From Candidatus Desulfofervidaceae bacterium (GTDB taxonomy: Bacteria > Desulfobacterota > Desulfofervidia > Desulfofervidales > Desulfofervidaceae): 41,776 nucleotides of DNA. The translations under genes were made by a program, and so were the position numbers. Of the stretch, positions 3,424 to 16,049 are shown piece by piece. The notes under the pieces were generated by a model that did not search any database, was not told the origin of the DNA, and saw only the letters and a list, made by a program, of their open reading frames with translations. The stretch covers positions 1 to 41,776 of the forward strand of contig JAMOPI010000036.1 of assembly GCA_027064585.1 (NCBI GenBank), in the 5' to 3' direction. Position 1 is the first letter of the stretch; each line of letters opens with the position of its first letter.

Positions 3424-6043
3424 AAAGGGAGGCCTCACGGTTATCGCCACTCATGAGAATGCCGATTTTGACGGTATTGCCTCCATGCTTGGGGTAAAAA
3501 AGCTTTATCCAGATTCCATCCCTATTGCTCCAACTAGTCAGGAAAAGGGGGTAAGGGAGTTTATTTTAACCAGCGCTATGGAATATTTTCGCCTGGTTAA
3601 GCTTAAAGACATTGATTTAGACAAAATTAAACGTGTAGTGCTTGTAGATACCAGCCAGATGAGCCGTGTTGGTAAACTGGCCGAGGTAATTAAACGGCCA
3701 GATGTAGAAGTACATGTGTATGACCATCACTTGCCTCCTGATCCAGGAACTCCTATTGACTTTAGTATCATCAAGCCAGTAGGGGCTACGGTCAGTATCT
3801 TGGTGTCGTTATTAAAAGAACGGGGAATTAAACTTAGACCCGAAGAAGCTACCTTAATGGCCCTTGGACTCTATGAAGACACAGGCGCCTTTACCTTTCG
3901 TTCTACTACCAAAGAGGATTTTGAGGCGGCTGCCTATTTATTGGAATGTGGAGCCAATCTCAATGTCGTAGCTGAACTGATTAATCAACAATTGACTCCA
4001 AGCGACATTGTTCTTTTAAACGAAATGATTACCGCCGCTCAAATGCATAACATTAATGGAGTACCCATCGTTATTACCAAAATTACAACCGACCACTATA
4101 TCAACGACTTTGCCATCTTAGTCCATCGGTTGATGGAAATTGAAAACATGGGCGTCTTGTTTGCCCTTGTGCAGATGGGCAATAAAATTTTTATCATTGC
4201 CCGCAGTAAACTGCCAGAAGTAGATGTGGCGGATATCCTCTCTGTTTTTGGTGGGGGAGGACACAAGGCAGCGGCCTCAGCGAGCGTAAAAAATTTGACC
4301 CTTATTCAATTGGAAGATGAGCTTTTAAAGGTGCTTCAGAAAAAGGTAAAAAGTCCGATTAGGGCCAAGGATTTAATGTCTTATCCAGTGAAGTGGATTT
4401 CTCCAGAAACAACTATAGAGGAGGCCGAATCTATTCTTGTGCGTTATGACATAAATGCTTTACCCATTTTAAAAGACGAAAAACTAGTAGGGATTATTAC
4501 AAGACCAGTAGTTGATCGGGCGCTATTTCATGGGCTCAAAAATCAACCAGTAAGGCGGTTTATGACAACCGAGTTTCCAGTGTTAAGGCCGGATTCTCCC
4601 TTAAATGAAATAAAAGAAGCCTTACTCCAGCACAAACAGCGGCTGGTGCCCATAGTGGAAGAGGGGAGGGTAGTGGGGGTCATTACCCGTAAGGACCTCC
4701 TGCACTACATCCTGACAAATCCCTCTGCCTTCTTAGGAGGCATTGACTTAGAAAGGCAGCCGCAAAAAAGATATGTTGTTTCTCTTTTACAGGAAAGACT
4801 GCCGGAAAAGATTCTTAACCTGCTTAAGGAGATTGGCCAGATAGGAGATGAATTAGGCTACAACGTCTATGTGGTTGGCGGCTTTGTTAGGGATTTACTT
4901 TTACGCCGGGAGAACTTTGACGTTGATATCGTCGTAGAAGGCGATGGCATTAAACTGGCACAAAGACTGGGAGAAAAATTAGGAGGACGAGTACATCCTT
5001 ACCAAAAGTTTGGTACGGCCGTGGTGGTTTTGCCAGATGAGTTTCAGCTTGATGTTGCCACGGCCCGCACCGAATATTATGAGTTCCCTGGGGCCCTGCC
5101 TAAGGTAGAAATAAGCTCCTTAAAACTTGATCTCTACCGCCGTGATTTTACGATCAATACCTTGGCGATCAAGCTCAATAAGCGTGACTTTGGTCTCCTC
5201 ATAGACTTTTTTGGCGGGCAGCGAGACTTAAAGGATGGTATCATCCGTGTTTTACACAATTTAAGCTTTGTAGAAGATCCCACCCGGATTTTGAGGGCTG
5301 TACGCTTTGAAAGAAGGTTTGATTTCAGGATTGGTAAACAAACCCTTGACCTTATGCGGCAGTCTCTGAAATTAAATCTCCTCGTTTATGTCAAGGGAGC
5401 CCGCATTTGGCATGAACTTAAATGTATCTTTTTAGAAAAGGATCCAGCCGCTATTTTACGCCGCTTGGCCGAACTAGATGTGCTTCAACTTATCCATCCG
5501 GCGCTGGTCTGGAATAAGGAGTCAGAAAGACTTTTTACTGAAGTCCAAGCGGTGCTTTCCTGGTTTGATCTCCTTTACTTGGAAGAAAAATACAAAAAAG
5601 AATGGATCTTTCTCTTGGCCCTTCTTGACCAATTGAGCGAACAAACGACTGATAACTGTCTCTTGCGGCTTGAATGGCCAGAAAGCAAGAGAAAAACCTT
5701 TCTCACCTATCGCCAGAGGGTAATCGGCATCTATCACCTGTGGCGGCGTAAGTGTAAAATAAAGCCAAGCGAGGTGTATTTTACCCTGCATGACATTCCC
5801 ATTTGCTTTTTACTCTATCTTATGGCCAAATTACCTTCTTCGCAAAAGCGTTGGATCTCCGAATACTTTACTAAATGGCGGCACACAAAGCCCTTGCTTA
5901 CAGGACATGATCTCAAAGAAATGGGGCTTATTCCTGGTCCAATTTTTAAAAAGATTTTGGATACCTTGCTTAAGGCCCGCCTTGACGGAGAGGTAAAGAC
6001 CTACGAAGATGAAAAAAATCTTGTGGCTAGACTTATAAGATGA
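3395..6043 (+). CDS. DHH-CBS-tRNA nucleotidyltransferase/poly(A) polymerase fusion
   Basis: An 882-residue multidomain protein. Residues 10-315 form a DHH/DHHA1 phosphoesterase: THENADFDG near 19-27, VDTSQ at 84-88, DHH at 110-112 and a GGGGHKAAAS DHHA1 motif near 287-296. Two CBS domains follow (about 320-440), which usually bind adenine nucleotides. From about 475 to the end is a class II nucleotidyltransferase: GGFVRDLLL near 494, the metal-binding DVD shortly after it, RRDFTINTLAI near 582, and an RNA-binding helical part. This architecture is known in Deltaproteobacteria-like lineages and Aquificae, where the transferase half adds CCA, or only A, to tRNA 3' ends. The DHH half may degrade small RNAs or dinucleotides (inference). 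It overlaps the Xer gene by 29 bases and the next gene by an ATGA junction. Confidence 0.92.
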   Translation: MSNFTPEPNKKGGLTVIATHENADFDGIASMLGVKKLYPDSIPIAPTSQEKGVREFILTSAMEYFRLVKLKDIDLDKIKRVVLVDTSQMSRVGKLAEVIKRPDVEVHVYDHHLPPDPGTPIDFSIIKPVGATVSILVSLLKERGIKLRPEEATLMALGLYEDTGAFTFRSTTKEDFEAAAYLLECGANLNVVAELINQQLTPSDIVLLNEMITAAQMHNINGVPIVITKITTDHYINDFAILVHRLMEIENMGVLFALVQMGNKIFIIARSKLPEVDVADILSVFGGGGHKAAASASVKNLTLIQLEDELLKVLQKKVKSPIRAKDLMSYPVKWISPETTIEEAESILVRYDINALPILKDEKLVGIITRPVVDRALFHGLKNQPVRRFMTTEFPVLRPDSPLNEIKEALLQHKQRLVPIVEEGRVVGVITRKDLLHYILTNPSAFLGGIDLERQPQKRYVVSLLQERLPEKILNLLKEIGQIGDELGYNVYVVGGFVRDLLLRRENFDVDIVVEGDGIKLAQRLGEKLGGRVHPYQKFGTAVVVLPDEFQLDVATARTEYYEFPGALPKVEISSLKLDLYRRDFTINTLAIKLNKRDFGLLIDFFGGQRDLKDGIIRVLHNLSFVEDPTRILRAVRFERRFDFRIGKQTLDLMRQSLKLNLLVYVKGARIWHELKCIFLEKDPAAILRRLAELDVLQLIHPALVWNKESERLFTEVQAVLSWFDLLYLEEKYKKEWIFLLALLDQLSEQTTDNCLLRLEWPESKRKTFLTYRQRVIGIYHLWRRKCKIKPSEVYFTLHDIPICFLLYLMAKLPSSQKRWISEYFTKWRHTKPLLTGHDLKEMGLIPGPIFKKILDTLLKARLDGEVKTYEDEKNLVARLIR

Positions 6044-6573
6044 GTGAATGGATGAAGATGAAACTCCTCCTTACTGGTCCGCCTCAAGTAGGCAAGACGA
6101 CGATCATCAAGCGATTTTGCAAACAGGCACGGGCAGAGGGTATACCCATAAAGGGTTTTTATACCGAAGAAATACGGGAAGGAGGTAAGCGGGTAGGGTT
6201 TAAGCTGGTTACCCTTGACGGTCAAGAGGTGGTGTTTAGTCATGTGCGCTTTTATTCACCCTTTAAGGTTGGAAAATACAAAGTAGATATAAAGGCCTTA
6301 GAGGCAGTTTTGCCTTCTATTCTTCCTTCCCATGCGGAACTTATCGTTATTGATGAGATCGGAAAAATGGAGTGTTTTTCAGAACGGTTTAAGCAGACGG
6401 TTTGGAAGATACTCCATGCACCTAATCCCTTCTTAGGCACCATTGCCTTAAAGGGGAGGGGATTTATAGAAAAGGTAAAGCAACTAAAACAGGTAGAAAT
6501 TATTGAAGTGAATTTAGAAAACCGGGATAGTTTGCCTGAGTTTTTGTTGAGAAAATTGCAATTTAATGAATGA
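6040..6573 (+). CDS. THEP1-type nucleoside-triphosphatase
   Basis: A 177-residue P-loop NTPase of the THEP1/COG1618 family, typically 170-180 residues, first described from thermophiles. The Walker A motif is GPPQVGKTT at about 13-21, and Walker B is IVIDEIGKME near 104. KGFYTEEIREGG near 38 is a family hallmark. Characterised members hydrolyse NTPs, and a human relative (NTPCR) does the same; the cellular role is not settled. The start ATG overlaps the previous stop (ATGA at 6040-6043), indicating coupled translation; internal ATGs at 6052 and 6058 are alternatives and would place the start closer to the P-loop. It is the last gene of the Xer-nucleotidyltransferase operon; the following 129 bases are AT-rich and lead into the helicase gene. 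Confidence 0.88.
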   Translation: MSEWMKMKLLLTGPPQVGKTTIIKRFCKQARAEGIPIKGFYTEEIREGGKRVGFKLVTLDGQEVVFSHVRFYSPFKVGKYKVDIKALEAVLPSILPSHAELIVIDEIGKMECFSERFKQTVWKILHAPNPFLGTIALKGRGFIEKVKQLKQVEIIEVNLENRDSLPEFLLRKLQFNE

Positions 6574-6702: not shown

Positions 6703-9700
6703 ATGGGACAACCGTTAGAAAACAGAGCTAAAGTTCTCTTTGATTATTTGCAAGAAGTTATCAAACTTGGTCTTAAAGTTTTTAGGACAGTTGAAGAACA
6801 TAAGGAAGATTTTGTTCTTTTTCAAAACAAGATTCCTAATGCTCAAGGAATTTCTTTATTTACACCTTCGGGTGAAGATTTATACTGGCTTTCCGTTTAT
6901 CGTCAAAGTATACCGGACCCTCCTGAACTTCCCAAAATTCTTGAAGGCTGGATTGAAACTTATGATGATCCCGAGAAGGAACCACAAATAATTAACCAGA
7001 AAGCCGTCATAAAAAATGGAATGCAGAAAATAGTTAAATTCTGTGAAGATAAATCCAGAGAAGATGCATTTATAGAATATCTTGAAAGATGGGAACAATG
7101 GGCAAAAGATGTTAAGGATAAGAAAAAAGTCCAAGCTTTGTTTGATAAGCTATTTAAAATTAATGAGCAGTTAAAATATGATGAGCAACTTGAGTTAATA
7201 TGGGGATATGGTCTTCTTCTTTGGAAAAAGAATGGATATACAATTAAATATCCTTTGGTAACACATAGTCGAGAGAAATTAGAAAAAGCTGTAGCTACTA
7301 TTACAGAAATAGTAACCCAATCACAACCACATATTCTTCAGAAACAAACAAAAAATTTGGAAGATAAGCTTGATCAACTCCGTGAAGAGCTGACAAAAAT
7401 AGAGAACCAAATAAAAGAACTATCTCTTGCTCAGCATAGATATATTAAATTTGATGACGAAATATTCCTTCCTGCTGATATTATAGAAAAGATAAAAAAA
7501 GAACAAAGAAAACATGCTTGGCTTGTAGATAATCTAGAATACAAACTTACAATTGAGAACTCTGGGGAAAAAGAAATTATCCATATAGTAGCTATTCCAC
7601 CACTTTCTACTGAAGAAATTGAAGAGCTTAAAACTTTACGAAATCAATTGCTCGAATATCTAAGCAATTTATCTTATGATTTGCCAAGTACAAATGAATT
7701 AGTTGATAGGATAGGATTTCAAAAAATAGTAGAAGATTTTCAAAAAATTTCTCAAATTGAAAAGACAATAAAGGAATACATACCCAACCTAATTTTAAAA
7801 AATGATAGTGAAGAACTTTTCGATAAGGCACTTAAAATTTTGAAAGACACATTAGATACTTATAAGTTAATCACCGAAAATTGGCAATATTCATTATTAT
7901 CAGAATTTCGAAAAGGGACTTTAGAAATAAATAGAATAAAACTAGCTATTGAAAAATTTAATACTAAAGCTAATGAATTAAACAAACTTAATCAGACTAT
8001 AGATCCTTTTCAAGTTATTACTTTACCAGAAACTTTTAGTTTAGAAGATCAAAAAATTTATGTTGAACAGGCCTTAGATTGTGTAAAAAAAGGAAAGAAA
8101 ATTCTTCGTTTCTTTGAATTTAACAGAAAAAAGAAGGCAGTCTTAAAGTCTATACTCATAAATGGCAGATCCCCGGGTTCTATAAAGGAATGGGAAGATG
8201 TTTTGAAATATATTATGTTTTTGACTATTATTAAGGAGCTTAAACTTCAATGGAATAACTTCGCCAAAAGTATCAATGCTCCTCAGTTATCTGAAAATAA
8301 AACACCAGACCAAGATGCTAAGAAATTGTTATCTTTAATCCAAAAATTGAATGCCCTAATTAATTATGAAACAATCTACTTACCTAAAACTCGACAAATT
8401 CTTAGTCCTTTAATTGTAGATGCTGATAAGATAGTAACTGATACTTCTCTTGAGAAGATATATAATGCACTCAAATTAAAAAAAGAAATAAGAGACTTTC
8501 AAAGTTCAAAATCTTTAAGAGAAGAATTAAAAAGTAATCTGCAAAGGATTATCGCTAAAGGGAAACCTCATCCAATAGTAAAAGAGTTATTAACATGTCT
8601 TGAAGATATTTTTAATAAAGAAAATATTAAAAATTGGGAAAGGGCATATCTACAGATAAAACATTTAGAATCACTTAAACCTCAGTATAATCGATTTAAA
8701 GAGTTGCTAAATAAGTTATCTAAACAAGCTCCAAGATGGACAGAAAAATGGAAAGAAAGAAATATTTCTGAAGGAGAACTTTGTCCTCCTTATTGGCAGA
8801 GGTCGTGGTGGTTTCAAGCGCTTAAAAAATATATCCAAGATATTTCTGATAGCACCAAGAAAATTTATGAATTGGAAGAAAAACAAAAGCAACTTATAGA
8901 TGAAGTAAAACGAACCAAAAGAGAGCTTGTATTAACTAAAGTAAAACTTAGCTTAACTCAGAGTTTAACTGAAGCTCAGTTGATGGCTTTAAAAAGGTGG
9001 TATCTTGCTGTTAGAAAACTTGGTAAAGGGAAAGGCAGGTACACATGGCAAAAAGAACGATTGGTTCAAAAAGAAATGAGGAAAGCAAAAGATGCTGTAC
9101 CTGTATGGATCATGCCATTATACAGAGTGTCAGAGACAATTCCTTCAGAATTTGGTAGCTTTGATGTTGTTATCATAGATGAAGCAAGTCAATGTGATAT
9201 ACGTGCTTTACTTGCTTTAGCTAGAGGTAAAAAAGCTATCATTGTTGGTGATCCAGAACAAATTAGCCCTGAAGGAGTTGGTATTAACCGAGAAGAAATT
9301 CGAAAGCTTATCAAAATATATTTAAGTGAAATTCCTAACAAGGATTATTTTGATCTGGAAACAAGTATATATGATTTGGCTAATATTGTTTTTAGTGGTC
9401 AAGGTGTGTTAATGCTAAAAGAACATTTCCGCTGTGTCCCTGAAATAATCGAGTTTAGTAATAAACTTTGCTATCATGGAGAAATCCTTCCTCTACGTAA
9501 TCCCTCACCAAATGAACGTTTAGATCCAGTTCTTGAAAGTGTCTTTGTTGAGGGAGGATATCGTGAAGGTAGAATGGATGTTAATAAGCCAGAAGCTAGA
9601 GCAATATGTGAAAGAGTTAAGCAAATAGTAAATGATCCTAAATACCAAGGTAAAAGTATTGGGGTAATTTCTCTCTTAGGAAAAGATCAGGCAAAGTATA

Positions 9701-10368
9701 TTTTTAATATTATCAGTGAATATATCACACCCGAACAACAAGAAGAATGTAAGTTTCGTGTGGGAGATTCTTATGACTTTCAAGGAGATGAACGGGATAT
9801 AATACTTCTATCAATGGTGGTAGGAGCTAATGATGAAAAAAGACTGACCACATTATCCGATGATATTAAACGATATAGACAACGTTTCAACGTAGCAGTT
9901 AGTAGGGCAAGAGATAAATTAATCCTTTTTCATTCTATAAGACTTGAGGACTTAAAACCTAATGATTTACGATATCAACTACTTTATTATATCCAAAATA
10001 GAGTATTACCCAATGACATAGAAATAGAAAAAGTAGATACAAAATTTGAGTCACCATTTGAAGAAAAGGTTTATCATTGGCTTACAAGTAGAGGTTACCG
10101 CGTCACTCCACAAGTTAAAGTTGGCCATTATCGTATAGACCTAGTTGTAGAAGGCACTAATTCACGACTTGGTATAGAATGTGATGGTGATAGATGGCAT
10201 CCTCCAGAGAAATGGTGGGCAGGTCAAGTTAGGCAAAGACAACTTGAAAGGATGGGGTGGACAATCTGTAGAATTTGGGGTAGCGATTTTTACCGCGATC
10301 CGGATGTAGCTATGAAATCTATCTTACATGCGCTTGATGAATTAAGAATTACTCCACATAGTTTTTAA
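6703..10368 (+). CDS. SF1 helicase-like protein with C-terminal PD-(D/E)XK nuclease domain; Walker A motif not found
   Basis: A 1221-residue protein. Residues 1-185 are unassigned; 200-700 are rich in charged helices with a coiled coil at about 215-245. The SF1 motifs begin late: an RKLGKGKG region near 770, motif II VVIIDEASQ near 822-830, motif III VGDPEQISP near 848, LKEHFRCVPE in motif IV, YDFQGDERD in motif V near 1024, and FNVAVSRARDK in motif VI near 1061. From about 1115 there is a Vsr/REase_MTES_1575-like nuclease: SPFEEKV, YRIDLVV, IECDGDRWH and GWTICRIWGSDF, giving the E...D...ExD core. No GxxxxGK[ST] Walker A occurs anywhere; the one GKS (near 983) has the wrong context. From memory, relatives carry a GPPGTGKT block between the N-terminal region and the coiled coil, so an in-frame loss near residues 185-190 is likely. 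The gene is markedly AT-rich (16 G+C in 60 at 8041-8100). Ribosome binding site AGAGG 6690-6694. A defence role is plausible but inferred. Confidence 0.8.
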   Translation: MGQPLENRAKVLFDYLQEVIKLGLKVFRTVEEHKEDFVLFQNKIPNAQGISLFTPSGEDLYWLSVYRQSIPDPPELPKILEGWIETYDDPEKEPQIINQKAVIKNGMQKIVKFCEDKSREDAFIEYLERWEQWAKDVKDKKKVQALFDKLFKINEQLKYDEQLELIWGYGLLLWKKNGYTIKYPLVTHSREKLEKAVATITEIVTQSQPHILQKQTKNLEDKLDQLREELTKIENQIKELSLAQHRYIKFDDEIFLPADIIEKIKKEQRKHAWLVDNLEYKLTIENSGEKEIIHIVAIPPLSTEEIEELKTLRNQLLEYLSNLSYDLPSTNELVDRIGFQKIVEDFQKISQIEKTIKEYIPNLILKNDSEELFDKALKILKDTLDTYKLITENWQYSLLSEFRKGTLEINRIKLAIEKFNTKANELNKLNQTIDPFQVITLPETFSLEDQKIYVEQALDCVKKGKKILRFFEFNRKKKAVLKSILINGRSPGSIKEWEDVLKYIMFLTIIKELKLQWNNFAKSINAPQLSENKTPDQDAKKLLSLIQKLNALINYETIYLPKTRQILSPLIVDADKIVTDTSLEKIYNALKLKKEIRDFQSSKSLREELKSNLQRIIAKGKPHPIVKELLTCLEDIFNKENIKNWERAYLQIKHLESLKPQYNRFKELLNKLSKQAPRWTEKWKERNISEGELCPPYWQRSWWFQALKKYIQDISDSTKKIYELEEKQKQLIDEVKRTKRELVLTKVKLSLTQSLTEAQLMALKRWYLAVRKLGKGKGRYTWQKERLVQKEMRKAKDAVPVWIMPLYRVSETIPSEFGSFDVVIIDEASQCDIRALLALARGKKAIIVGDPEQISPEGVGINREEIRKLIKIYLSEIPNKDYFDLETSIYDLANIVFSGQGVLMLKEHFRCVPEIIEFSNKLCYHGEILPLRNPSPNERLDPVLESVFVEGGYREGRMDVNKPEARAICERVKQIVNDPKYQGKSIGVISLLGKDQAKYIFNIISEYITPEQQEECKFRVGDSYDFQGDERDIILLSMVVGANDEKRLTTLSDDIKRYRQRFNVAVSRARDKLILFHSIRLEDLKPNDLRYQLLYYIQNRVLPNDIEIEKVDTKFESPFEEKVYHWLTSRGYRVTPQVKVGHYRIDLVVEGTNSRLGIECDGDRWHPPEKWWAGQVRQRQLERMGWTICRIWGSDFYRDPDVAMKSILHALDELRITPHSF

Positions 10369-10395
10369 GAGTTTAATTTTTTAAGGAGTCCAATC

Positions 10396-11391
10396 ATGAT
10401 AGGAGAAAGAGAAAAGGATGACTTGCAAACCATAAAATGTATGCCCGCAAGGATCAAACTTATCCTTATCAACAGTCAAAATCAAGATTTATTTTTAAAG
10501 CTAGAGGCCTTTTGCGAGGAGTTAAAAAGGTATTTGGCAGAATTAGAGATTGCCTATACCCAAGAGGATTTACCTGCCTATCCGGCCATAAAGATAACGA
10601 GCAGAAATAGGGAAATAAATCTCTATTATTTCGCCTTACCTGAAGGTAGGGAGTGGTCACCTTTTTTCAACGCCCTAAAGGCTATAGCTAAGGAAGAAGT
10701 CTTCTTAGATAAAAACTCTATGGAAAGGGTCAAGAAATTAGCCCACCCGGTGGTAGTTAAGGTCTTTATTACGCCCCATTGTGTCTTTTGCCCCTTGGTG
10801 GTAGATTTAATCAACCAAGTGGCCATTGCCAATGAGTTGATAAAAGTTTTTGTTATTGACGGCACTCTCTATCCTGAACTGGCTAAGCAGTATAAGGTAA
10901 CGGCTTCTCCCACGGTGGTCATCAATGAAGATTACTTTTTGGTGGGTACTGAAGCAAGAGAAAGACTGATTGATTGGTTAGAAAAGGCCGCGCAATCCAT
11001 TTACGATCCCCAAGTGATTAAATCTCTTTTAAAGCAGGCCCAAGCCGAGCGTGTCGTAGAGCTTTGTTTGGAAAACGAGGTATATCTTAAGCCCCTTTTG
11101 GCCCTTTTGACCGACCAAGAACTTTTTCCCCGCATTGGTGCGATGCGGGTGTTGGAAGAATTAAGGGATAAGGCCCCGCAATTAATTGAAAAAGTTTTGC
11201 CGCAACTTCTAAAGATGCTTAACACGCAAGAAGCAAGGGATAAAGGAGATATTCTTTTTCTGTTAGGTCTGATTGGCACCCCTGAAGTGATTGGTTCACT
11301 CAAAGAAATTGCCCAAAGGGAAGAGGGAGAGATCAAAGAGATTACCCTTGAGGCAATAGAAGAAATAAGGCAAAGGTATAAATTCTGCTAA
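10396..11391 (+). CDS. Thioredoxin-like/PDO-type redoxin with HEAT-like C-terminal repeats
   Basis: A 331-residue protein with three parts. Residues 18-105 look like a first thioredoxin-fold domain without a CxxC. Residues 118-215 are a glutaredoxin-like domain with the active site CVFC (C129, C132) after VFITPH, and a cis-proline in TASPTVVIN near 177. Residues 220-331 are helical repeats of HEAT type, such as LFPRIGAMRVLEEL and GLIGTPEVIGSLKEIA. The tandem redoxin layout resembles the protein disulfide oxidoreductases and AhpF N-terminal domains of thermophiles and anaerobes; the repeat tail probably docks a partner protein. No signal peptide is present, so it is cytoplasmic. An AAGGAG ribosome binding site at 10383-10388 sits 7 bases before the ATG. 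It follows the AT-rich helicase gene but has normal base composition, so it probably belonged to the operon upstream of that gene. Confidence 0.82.
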   Translation: MIGEREKDDLQTIKCMPARIKLILINSQNQDLFLKLEAFCEELKRYLAELEIAYTQEDLPAYPAIKITSRNREINLYYFALPEGREWSPFFNALKAIAKEEVFLDKNSMERVKKLAHPVVVKVFITPHCVFCPLVVDLINQVAIANELIKVFVIDGTLYPELAKQYKVTASPTVVINEDYFLVGTEARERLIDWLEKAAQSIYDPQVIKSLLKQAQAERVVELCLENEVYLKPLLALLTDQELFPRIGAMRVLEELRDKAPQLIEKVLPQLLKMLNTQEARDKGDILFLLGLIGTPEVIGSLKEIAQREEGEIKEITLEAIEEIRQRYKFC

Positions 11392-15065: not shown

Positions 15066-16049
15066 ATGTACGGATGGTGTGGCTGTATTATACGGGTTGA
15101 TCTGAGTACAAATACTATAGCCAAAGTCCCTCTTTCCCAAGATGTTGCCCGTCAGTTTTTGGGAGGAAGGGGTTTTAATTCTAAAGTGCTGTTTGATGAA
15201 ATTCCTTTAGGGATTGATCCCTTAAGTGCTCAAAATGTTATCTGTTTTGCCCCAGGACTTTTGTCAGGTACACCTTTTCCTCTAACCAGTCGGGTTGAGG
15301 TGAGCACTCTTTCTCCTTACAGTGGTATTTTGGGAGATGGTAATGCTGGTGGGAAGTTTGCTGCCTTTTTAAAAAAGGCAGGTTATGATCAGATCATCAT
15401 TACAGGAAAGGCCTCTTCTCCAAAGTATCTTTTGATTGATAATGAGCAAATTGAGCTTAAAGATGCGACTGATTTATGGGGAAAAACCACATGGGAAACA
15501 ACTGATATTCTTATAGAGCGGCATGGTCACGATATCTCTGTTGCCTGTATTGGACAGGCAGGTGAAAATCTTGTCCGTTTTGCCACCACCATTATAGACA
15601 AATATGCTTCCGCGGCTAGGGGTAGTGGAGCAGTCTTGGGAGCAAAAAGACTAAAGGCTATTGTGGTTAGAGGTAAAAATAACGTCAAAATAGCTGATCC
15701 TGAAACTTTTAAGGCCTTAGTTAAAGCAGACTTAAAGTTTTTAACGACTGATAAATTTCAAACACGGGTGGCGGCTATCTATGGTAGTCACTTTGGTGTG
15801 CTCCATTGGCATCCTGGCTTTAGGCATTACCAAAAATATCTTAAAGCCAAAGAAATTCCCCACAAGCTTCGCCCTAAGGCTTGGGAAAAATATGAAATAT
15901 GAAGATATGGCTGTTATGGTTGTCCTATTCGGTGTAAGAACCTCTTTCGCATCCCTGAGGGACAAAGGGCAGGTGAGATAGGCGGTGCCTTAGAATATGA
16001 ATGTATCTTTTGCTCTGGATATTCGGTGGTTACCTGTGGTAACCATTAA
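15066..16049 (+). pseudogene. Broken aldehyde:ferredoxin oxidoreductase gene
   Basis: The frame starts MYGWCGCIIRVDLSTN and continues through GGRGFNSKVLFDE, SPYSGILGDGNAGGKFA and the ASAARGSGAVLGAKRLKAIVV block. These are the N-terminal domain and cofactor-contact motifs of tungsten aldehyde:ferredoxin oxidoreductases, which are normally about 600 residues. After 278 codons an in-frame TGA (15900-15902) interrupts the sequence just before the iron-sulfur ligand motif. The same frame then continues as RYGCYGCPIRCKNLF with good family similarity and stops at TAA 16047-16049. The second half of the gene, including the last Fe-S ligand and much of the pterin-binding part, is absent. The TGA aligns where relatives have a basic residue, so an AGA-to-TGA change is the simplest explanation. 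The product cannot be an active enzyme. Confidence 0.85.

Follow-up and report, generated by a model that had tools for sequence, protein, structure and literature searches.

The window, meaning the whole stretch of DNA that was analysed, covers 41,776 nt of contig JAMOPI010000036.1 from the Candidatus Desulfofervidaceae bacterium assembly GCA_027064585.1. In the interior of the contig, 6.7 kb from its start, lies a CDS (P0001) for an SF1 helicase without a P-loop, joined to an MTES_1575 nuclease domain. Its features and the two adjacent genes are listed below, with the basis of each assignment.

6040-6573, + strand: upstream neighbour of P0001, NTPase_1 (THEP1-like) (Pfam)
6703-10368, + strand: P0001, P-loop-less SF1 helicase / MTES_1575 nuclease, 1221 aa (ORF, Pfam)
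6703-7266, + strand: N-terminal region, residues 1-188, colinear with full-length relatives (alignment)
7264-7272, + strand: in-frame deletion junction, H188-S189-R190, with ~245 residues (~740 nt) absent (alignment, tblastn)
7336-8802, + strand: coiled-coil insertion, residues ~212-700 (alignment; homology to the sister gene L005 begins at residue 212)
9178-9192, + strand: motif II, DEASQ, residues 826-830 (motif search, alignment)
9247-9261, + strand: motif III, GDPEQ, residues 849-853 (motif search, alignment)
9400-9927, + strand: AAA_12 (RecA2) with motifs IV-VI (EHFRC, QGDERD, SRARDK) (PF13087, 8.5e-19)
10057-10335, + strand: MTES_1575 / DUF559-like nuclease, residues 1119-1211 (PF18741, 1.1e-31)
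10222-10224, + strand: codon 1174, GGT (Gly), which is GAT in the sister gene L005 (alignment)
10396-11391, + strand: downstream neighbour, thioredoxin/glutaredoxin-fold protein (Pfam)

The reading frame is wholly open across 3.6 kb, with no accumulated stop, as the sequence-only reading had stated, and its description of the helicase motifs was also borne out. DEASQ, GDPEQ, EHFRC, FQGDERD and SRAR were all located by motif search and Pfam, and D826, E827, S829 and Q830 of motif II are invariant in the family alignment. The AAA_12 match spans residues 900-1075, while the AAA_11 match (residues 714-856) begins only at profile position 126 of 257, and a scan of all 1221 aa found no GxxxxGK[ST]. 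Measured against an active Upf1-like SF1 helicase, motif I (Walker A) is absent and motifs II-VI are present. A divergent P-loop was looked for in the alignment and none was seen; the sole other G/K-rich motif, GKGKGR (residues 774-779), corresponds to GKGTGK, a distinct conserved element of the family. AlphaFold2 models, built with five sequences each, gave a mean pLDDT of 49 for a fragment of P0001 and 46 for a P-loop-bearing control (L006), with both helicase cores low.

A search of the genome collection retrieved full-length homologues with GPPGTGKS from Halanaerobacter jeridensis (L006, 40% identity) and Halanaerobium sp. (L008, 41%), and alignment to these and 20 further relatives revealed a clean missing block. 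P0001 is colinear with L006 and L008 up to YPLVTH (residue 188) and then continues, as 'YPLVTH|SREKLEKAV', with a segment whose counterpart lies far 3' of the P-loop, so that residue ~188 abuts the equivalent of full-length residue ~437. When the 1586 aa L008 protein was used in a tblastn search of the source genome, its residues 10-189 matched 6733-7269 (30% identity over the N-terminal region) and residues 437-1474 matched 7273-10383, the two matches abutting with nothing in between. The absent stretch comprises the last part of the N-terminal region together with the Q motif and motifs I and Ia. The earlier reading had placed a P-loop block of 200-400 residues near residues 185-190, where the N-terminal region joins the coiled coil, and the relatives carry about 245 residues exactly there. 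The same L008 search found no match to the missing block on any of the 38 contigs of the source genome (1.92 Mb, 100% complete), and a second genomic site for it was rejected on that result. No direct or inverted repeats that might explain an excision were found framing or spanning the junction.

By its profile matches, the predicted protein belongs to a family of SF1 (Upf1-like) helicases with an MTES_1575 nuclease, and the nearest known type is PDC-S37, a candidate defence protein. PDC-S37 (PDLC05009) was its best PADLOC match (7e-63, residues 409-1215), and the two have the order coiled-coil, helicase and nuclease in common. However, P0001 covers only positions 553-1342 of the 1550 in the profile, the first 552 being unmatched, and neither the P-loop block nor the sequence around it is present; in full-length relatives the match is better and starts further upstream (239-1393). 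The best NCBIfam match was the anti-phage protein ProA (NF058533; 204.8 bits, residues 213-1215), far under the 1500-bit cut-off, with 1221 aa set against 1903 profile positions. The anti-phage DUF4011 helicase-Vsr protein Hhe (NF042953 / PDLC02194) shares SF1 motifs II-VI followed by a Vsr-like nuclease but differs at the N-terminus, and P0001 reached 135 bits where the cut-off is 2000; Pfam detected neither DUF4011 nor DUF3320 in P0001. Within the literature collection searched, no paper on PDC-S37 or ProA was found. P0001 is best called a putative damaged member of a PDC-S37-like candidate defence family.

The family was surveyed in 395 genomes of the source phylum, 390 of the phylum of L005 and 299 of that of L006. 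Of the family ORFs, 38 with a length of at least about 1290 aa are intact and were read from end to end; all of them carry GPPGTGK[ST] at the same place and none shares the clean deletion. Single-sequence searches gave no close viral relative; profile searches of a viral collection gave distant full-length ones, and a P-loop is present in every viral-contig relative in which that region is covered. About ten further loci are visibly broken, and roughly one in five loci of the family is disrupted. The damage takes many forms, including several frameshifts (L067), split genes (L053, L054), a C-terminal piece only (L115), small remnants (L116, L117), a single in-frame stop (L136) and an N-terminal piece cut just after the P-loop (L145). 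L114 (2786-6336) is broken into three: an N-terminal ORF that has the P-loop, a central piece in inverted orientation, and a C-terminal ORF. In Halanaerobium congolense the copy is split by an insertion sequence, and the terminal sequence ATTTCGTGGTTGCTATGAATAATTCAGG is found on both contig ends (L142 1-83 and L143 1-90).

The nuclease domain matches MTES_1575 above the gathering score (109 bits against 38.2) and has a weak sequence match to 3hrl, a DUF559 protein. It had been described as having an intact core, and this holds for E1120, D1146 and E1159, which are retained, but not for residue 1174, which is Gly in P0001 and D/E in 80 of the 83 nuclease domains compared, leaving the conserved set incomplete. 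D1174 lies in the D..R element of the domain and aligns with an Asp of 3hrl. The two further domains with a non-acidic residue here, L140 and L153, also lack the equivalent of E1159, which fits an active-site role for D1174 as predicted from the alignment. Two full-length relatives, L139 (1476-6056) and L140 (2554-7149), keep GPPGTGKT and have D1146 and E1159 replaced (P; V/S), and are predicted to be naturally occurring forms in which the nuclease is dead and the ATPase intact.

The nearest homologue, L005, is from the MAG Candidatus Thermoplasmatota S9B9_HD70 and is 85% identical over P0001 residues 212-1221; its contig has a G+C content of ~30%, matching that of the gene. L005 also lacks the P-loop, although here the N-terminal region is wholly absent, unlike the internal deletion of P0001. 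Its ATG lies 188 bp from the contig end and opens a stretch of about 31 unrelated residues, so that the odd N-terminus is less than 300 bp from that end, and there is no other lesion, D1174 being kept. Within L005 1-281, a short repeat of 12-17 bp, GAAGATAAGCTT, is found at the N-terminal join. The 31 residues and the upstream DNA had no match in genomes G000, G001 or G002, or elsewhere in G039, and the parts missing from L005 are absent from the rest of its genome. The N-terminus of L005 may be genuine as a gene start, may result from an independent rearrangement, or may be a chimera formed at the contig end.

Comparison of the two genes gave a dN/dS of 0.16 overall, falling to 0.068 within the helicase core. 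Among 77 columns of the family alignment with at least 95% conservation, a single private change is found in P0001 (D1174G, GAT to GGT) and none in L005. Drift was simulated under a simple mutation model with the branch length taken as half of dS, and the figures are accordingly approximate. With 15% of the P0001 branch evolving neutrally, about five changes would be expected at these columns (P(<=1) 0.035), and with as little as 5% a stop codon appeared in 90% of runs, so that any inactivation of P0001 must be recent. P0001 and L005 agree at all 13 ATP-site residues of motifs II-VI, where drift along one branch would be expected to change 4.9 of them (P(0) = 0.002), making an ancient loss followed by an ATP-independent function unlikely. 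The ATP site was important in both lineages until the very recent past, unless it is completed in trans. With no further lesions in P0001, the deletion is very young, or is an assembly error, or the shortened gene is still fully constrained.

P0001 has a G+C content of 28-35%, compared with ~43-45% in its flanks, and a GC3 of 0.21 compared with 0.40-0.44 in its immediate neighbours. No homologue was found in four genomes of the same family, and in the same-genus genome G001 the thioredoxin-fold gene directly follows a DHH-CCA gene, with no helicase between. As an AT-rich gene that is absent from relatives and stands alone between two housekeeping genes, P0001 is a solo horizontal acquisition. 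The THEP1-like neighbour was considered as a dedicated ATPase partner and rejected, since it is also present in a relative without the helicase. The full-length homologues of Halanaerobiales (L006 and L008, 40-41% identical and colinear on either side of the gap) differ from P0001 in having GPPGTGKS and also a DUF4145 / UvrD-like helicase gene upstream, immediately so in L008 (4950-7946; 1410-4001 in L006), and the pair is possibly a two-gene defence system in these bacteria. No relative of this UvrD-like gene was found in the source genome or in that of L005.

SF1 helicase-nucleases are expected to couple ATP-driven translocation to DNA cleavage, and by analogy the full-length parent of P0001 presumably did so. 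We favour the explanation, with a probability of roughly 0.58, that P0001 represents a horizontally acquired, PDC-S37-like candidate defence gene in an allele that was damaged recently and probably no longer functions. One internal deletion of ~740 bp, in frame by chance or tolerated because it is in frame, would have taken out the tail of the N-terminal region along with the Q motif and motifs I and Ia, leaving the first RecA domain without most of its ATP-binding half. Such a protein should be incapable of normal ATP binding and hydrolysis, and of translocation. ATPase and helicase activity would then be lost, nuclease activity probably lost, and phage defence, itself a candidate role, lost as well. 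This explanation draws on the clean loss of the block, the P-loop in 38 of 38 intact relatives and D1174G, on the frequency with which loci of the family are broken, and on the foreign composition of the gene, its absence from the four same-family genomes and the missing UvrD-like gene, as well as on the simulated drift, by which any inactivation is recent. Against it stand the frame that is open over 3.6 kb, a deletion that is exactly in frame (one in three by chance), and the uncomfortable coincidence of two very recent, independent P-loop losses in the two closest known genes.

The absence of further lesions would fit an assembly deletion as well as a very recent loss, and it is conceivable, though unlikely, that the chromosome carries a full-length gene (or a mixture of strains was sequenced) and the assembler dropped ~740 bp. 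The perfectly kept ATP-site residues agree with this, as does the position of the odd N-terminus of L005 so close to a contig end, but P0001 itself is well inside its contig, no repeat crosses the junction, the block is missing from all other contigs of an assembly that is 100% complete, and D1174G is an independent lesion. The sequence-only reading had proposed that the protein may have become an ATP-independent nuclease, a DNA-binding or sensor protein or a partner-dependent ATPase. A selected form would be a pseudo-helicase that binds or senses DNA and presents the nuclease, ATP-free or with a borrowed ATPase. RecC is a pseudo-helicase and a model for such a form, and the open frame, the low dN/dS and the lack of a P-loop in both of the closest known homologues speak for it; nevertheless, we consider it improbable, since after an ancestral loss the 13 ATP-site residues should have drifted, motifs II-VI show no relaxation in either gene, the UvrD-like partner is absent from both genomes, and D1174 of the nuclease is lost in P0001. 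Selection could continue to act on motifs II-VI in a chain that has no P-loop if the ATP site were completed in trans or the N-terminus switched by recombination, and a stable, selected, P-loop-less helicase-nuclease of this kind in an AT-rich thermophile lineage (P0001 and L005) seems to us a long shot. Hardly to be expected at all is a reversible or recombining N-terminus, with some cells of the population having the P-loop block cut out or exchanged and the gene thereby turned off and on. The differing N-terminal arrangements of P0001 and L005 (one ending at a contig edge), the repeat at the L005 junction and the inverted segment in L114 would suit it, yet no inverted or direct repeats frame the P0001 junction, an alternative block is nowhere in G000 or G039, and no dedicated recombinase was seen beside P0001.

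If P0001 is only broken, it is another solo defence gene that was acquired and then lost, and a caution against inferring new enzymology from a missing motif. Should the P-loop-less form prove to be selected, it would represent a helicase that needs no ATP site or has it completed elsewhere, and would help in asking which parts of this large family do the defending.

Elsewhere in the window, an aldehyde ferredoxin oxidoreductase gene (15066-~16050, + strand) is decayed. It has only AFOR_N, and its frame is interrupted by a TGA at 15900-15902; beyond this stop the C-terminal part begins without a change of frame (RYGCYGCPIRCKN...) but does not continue.
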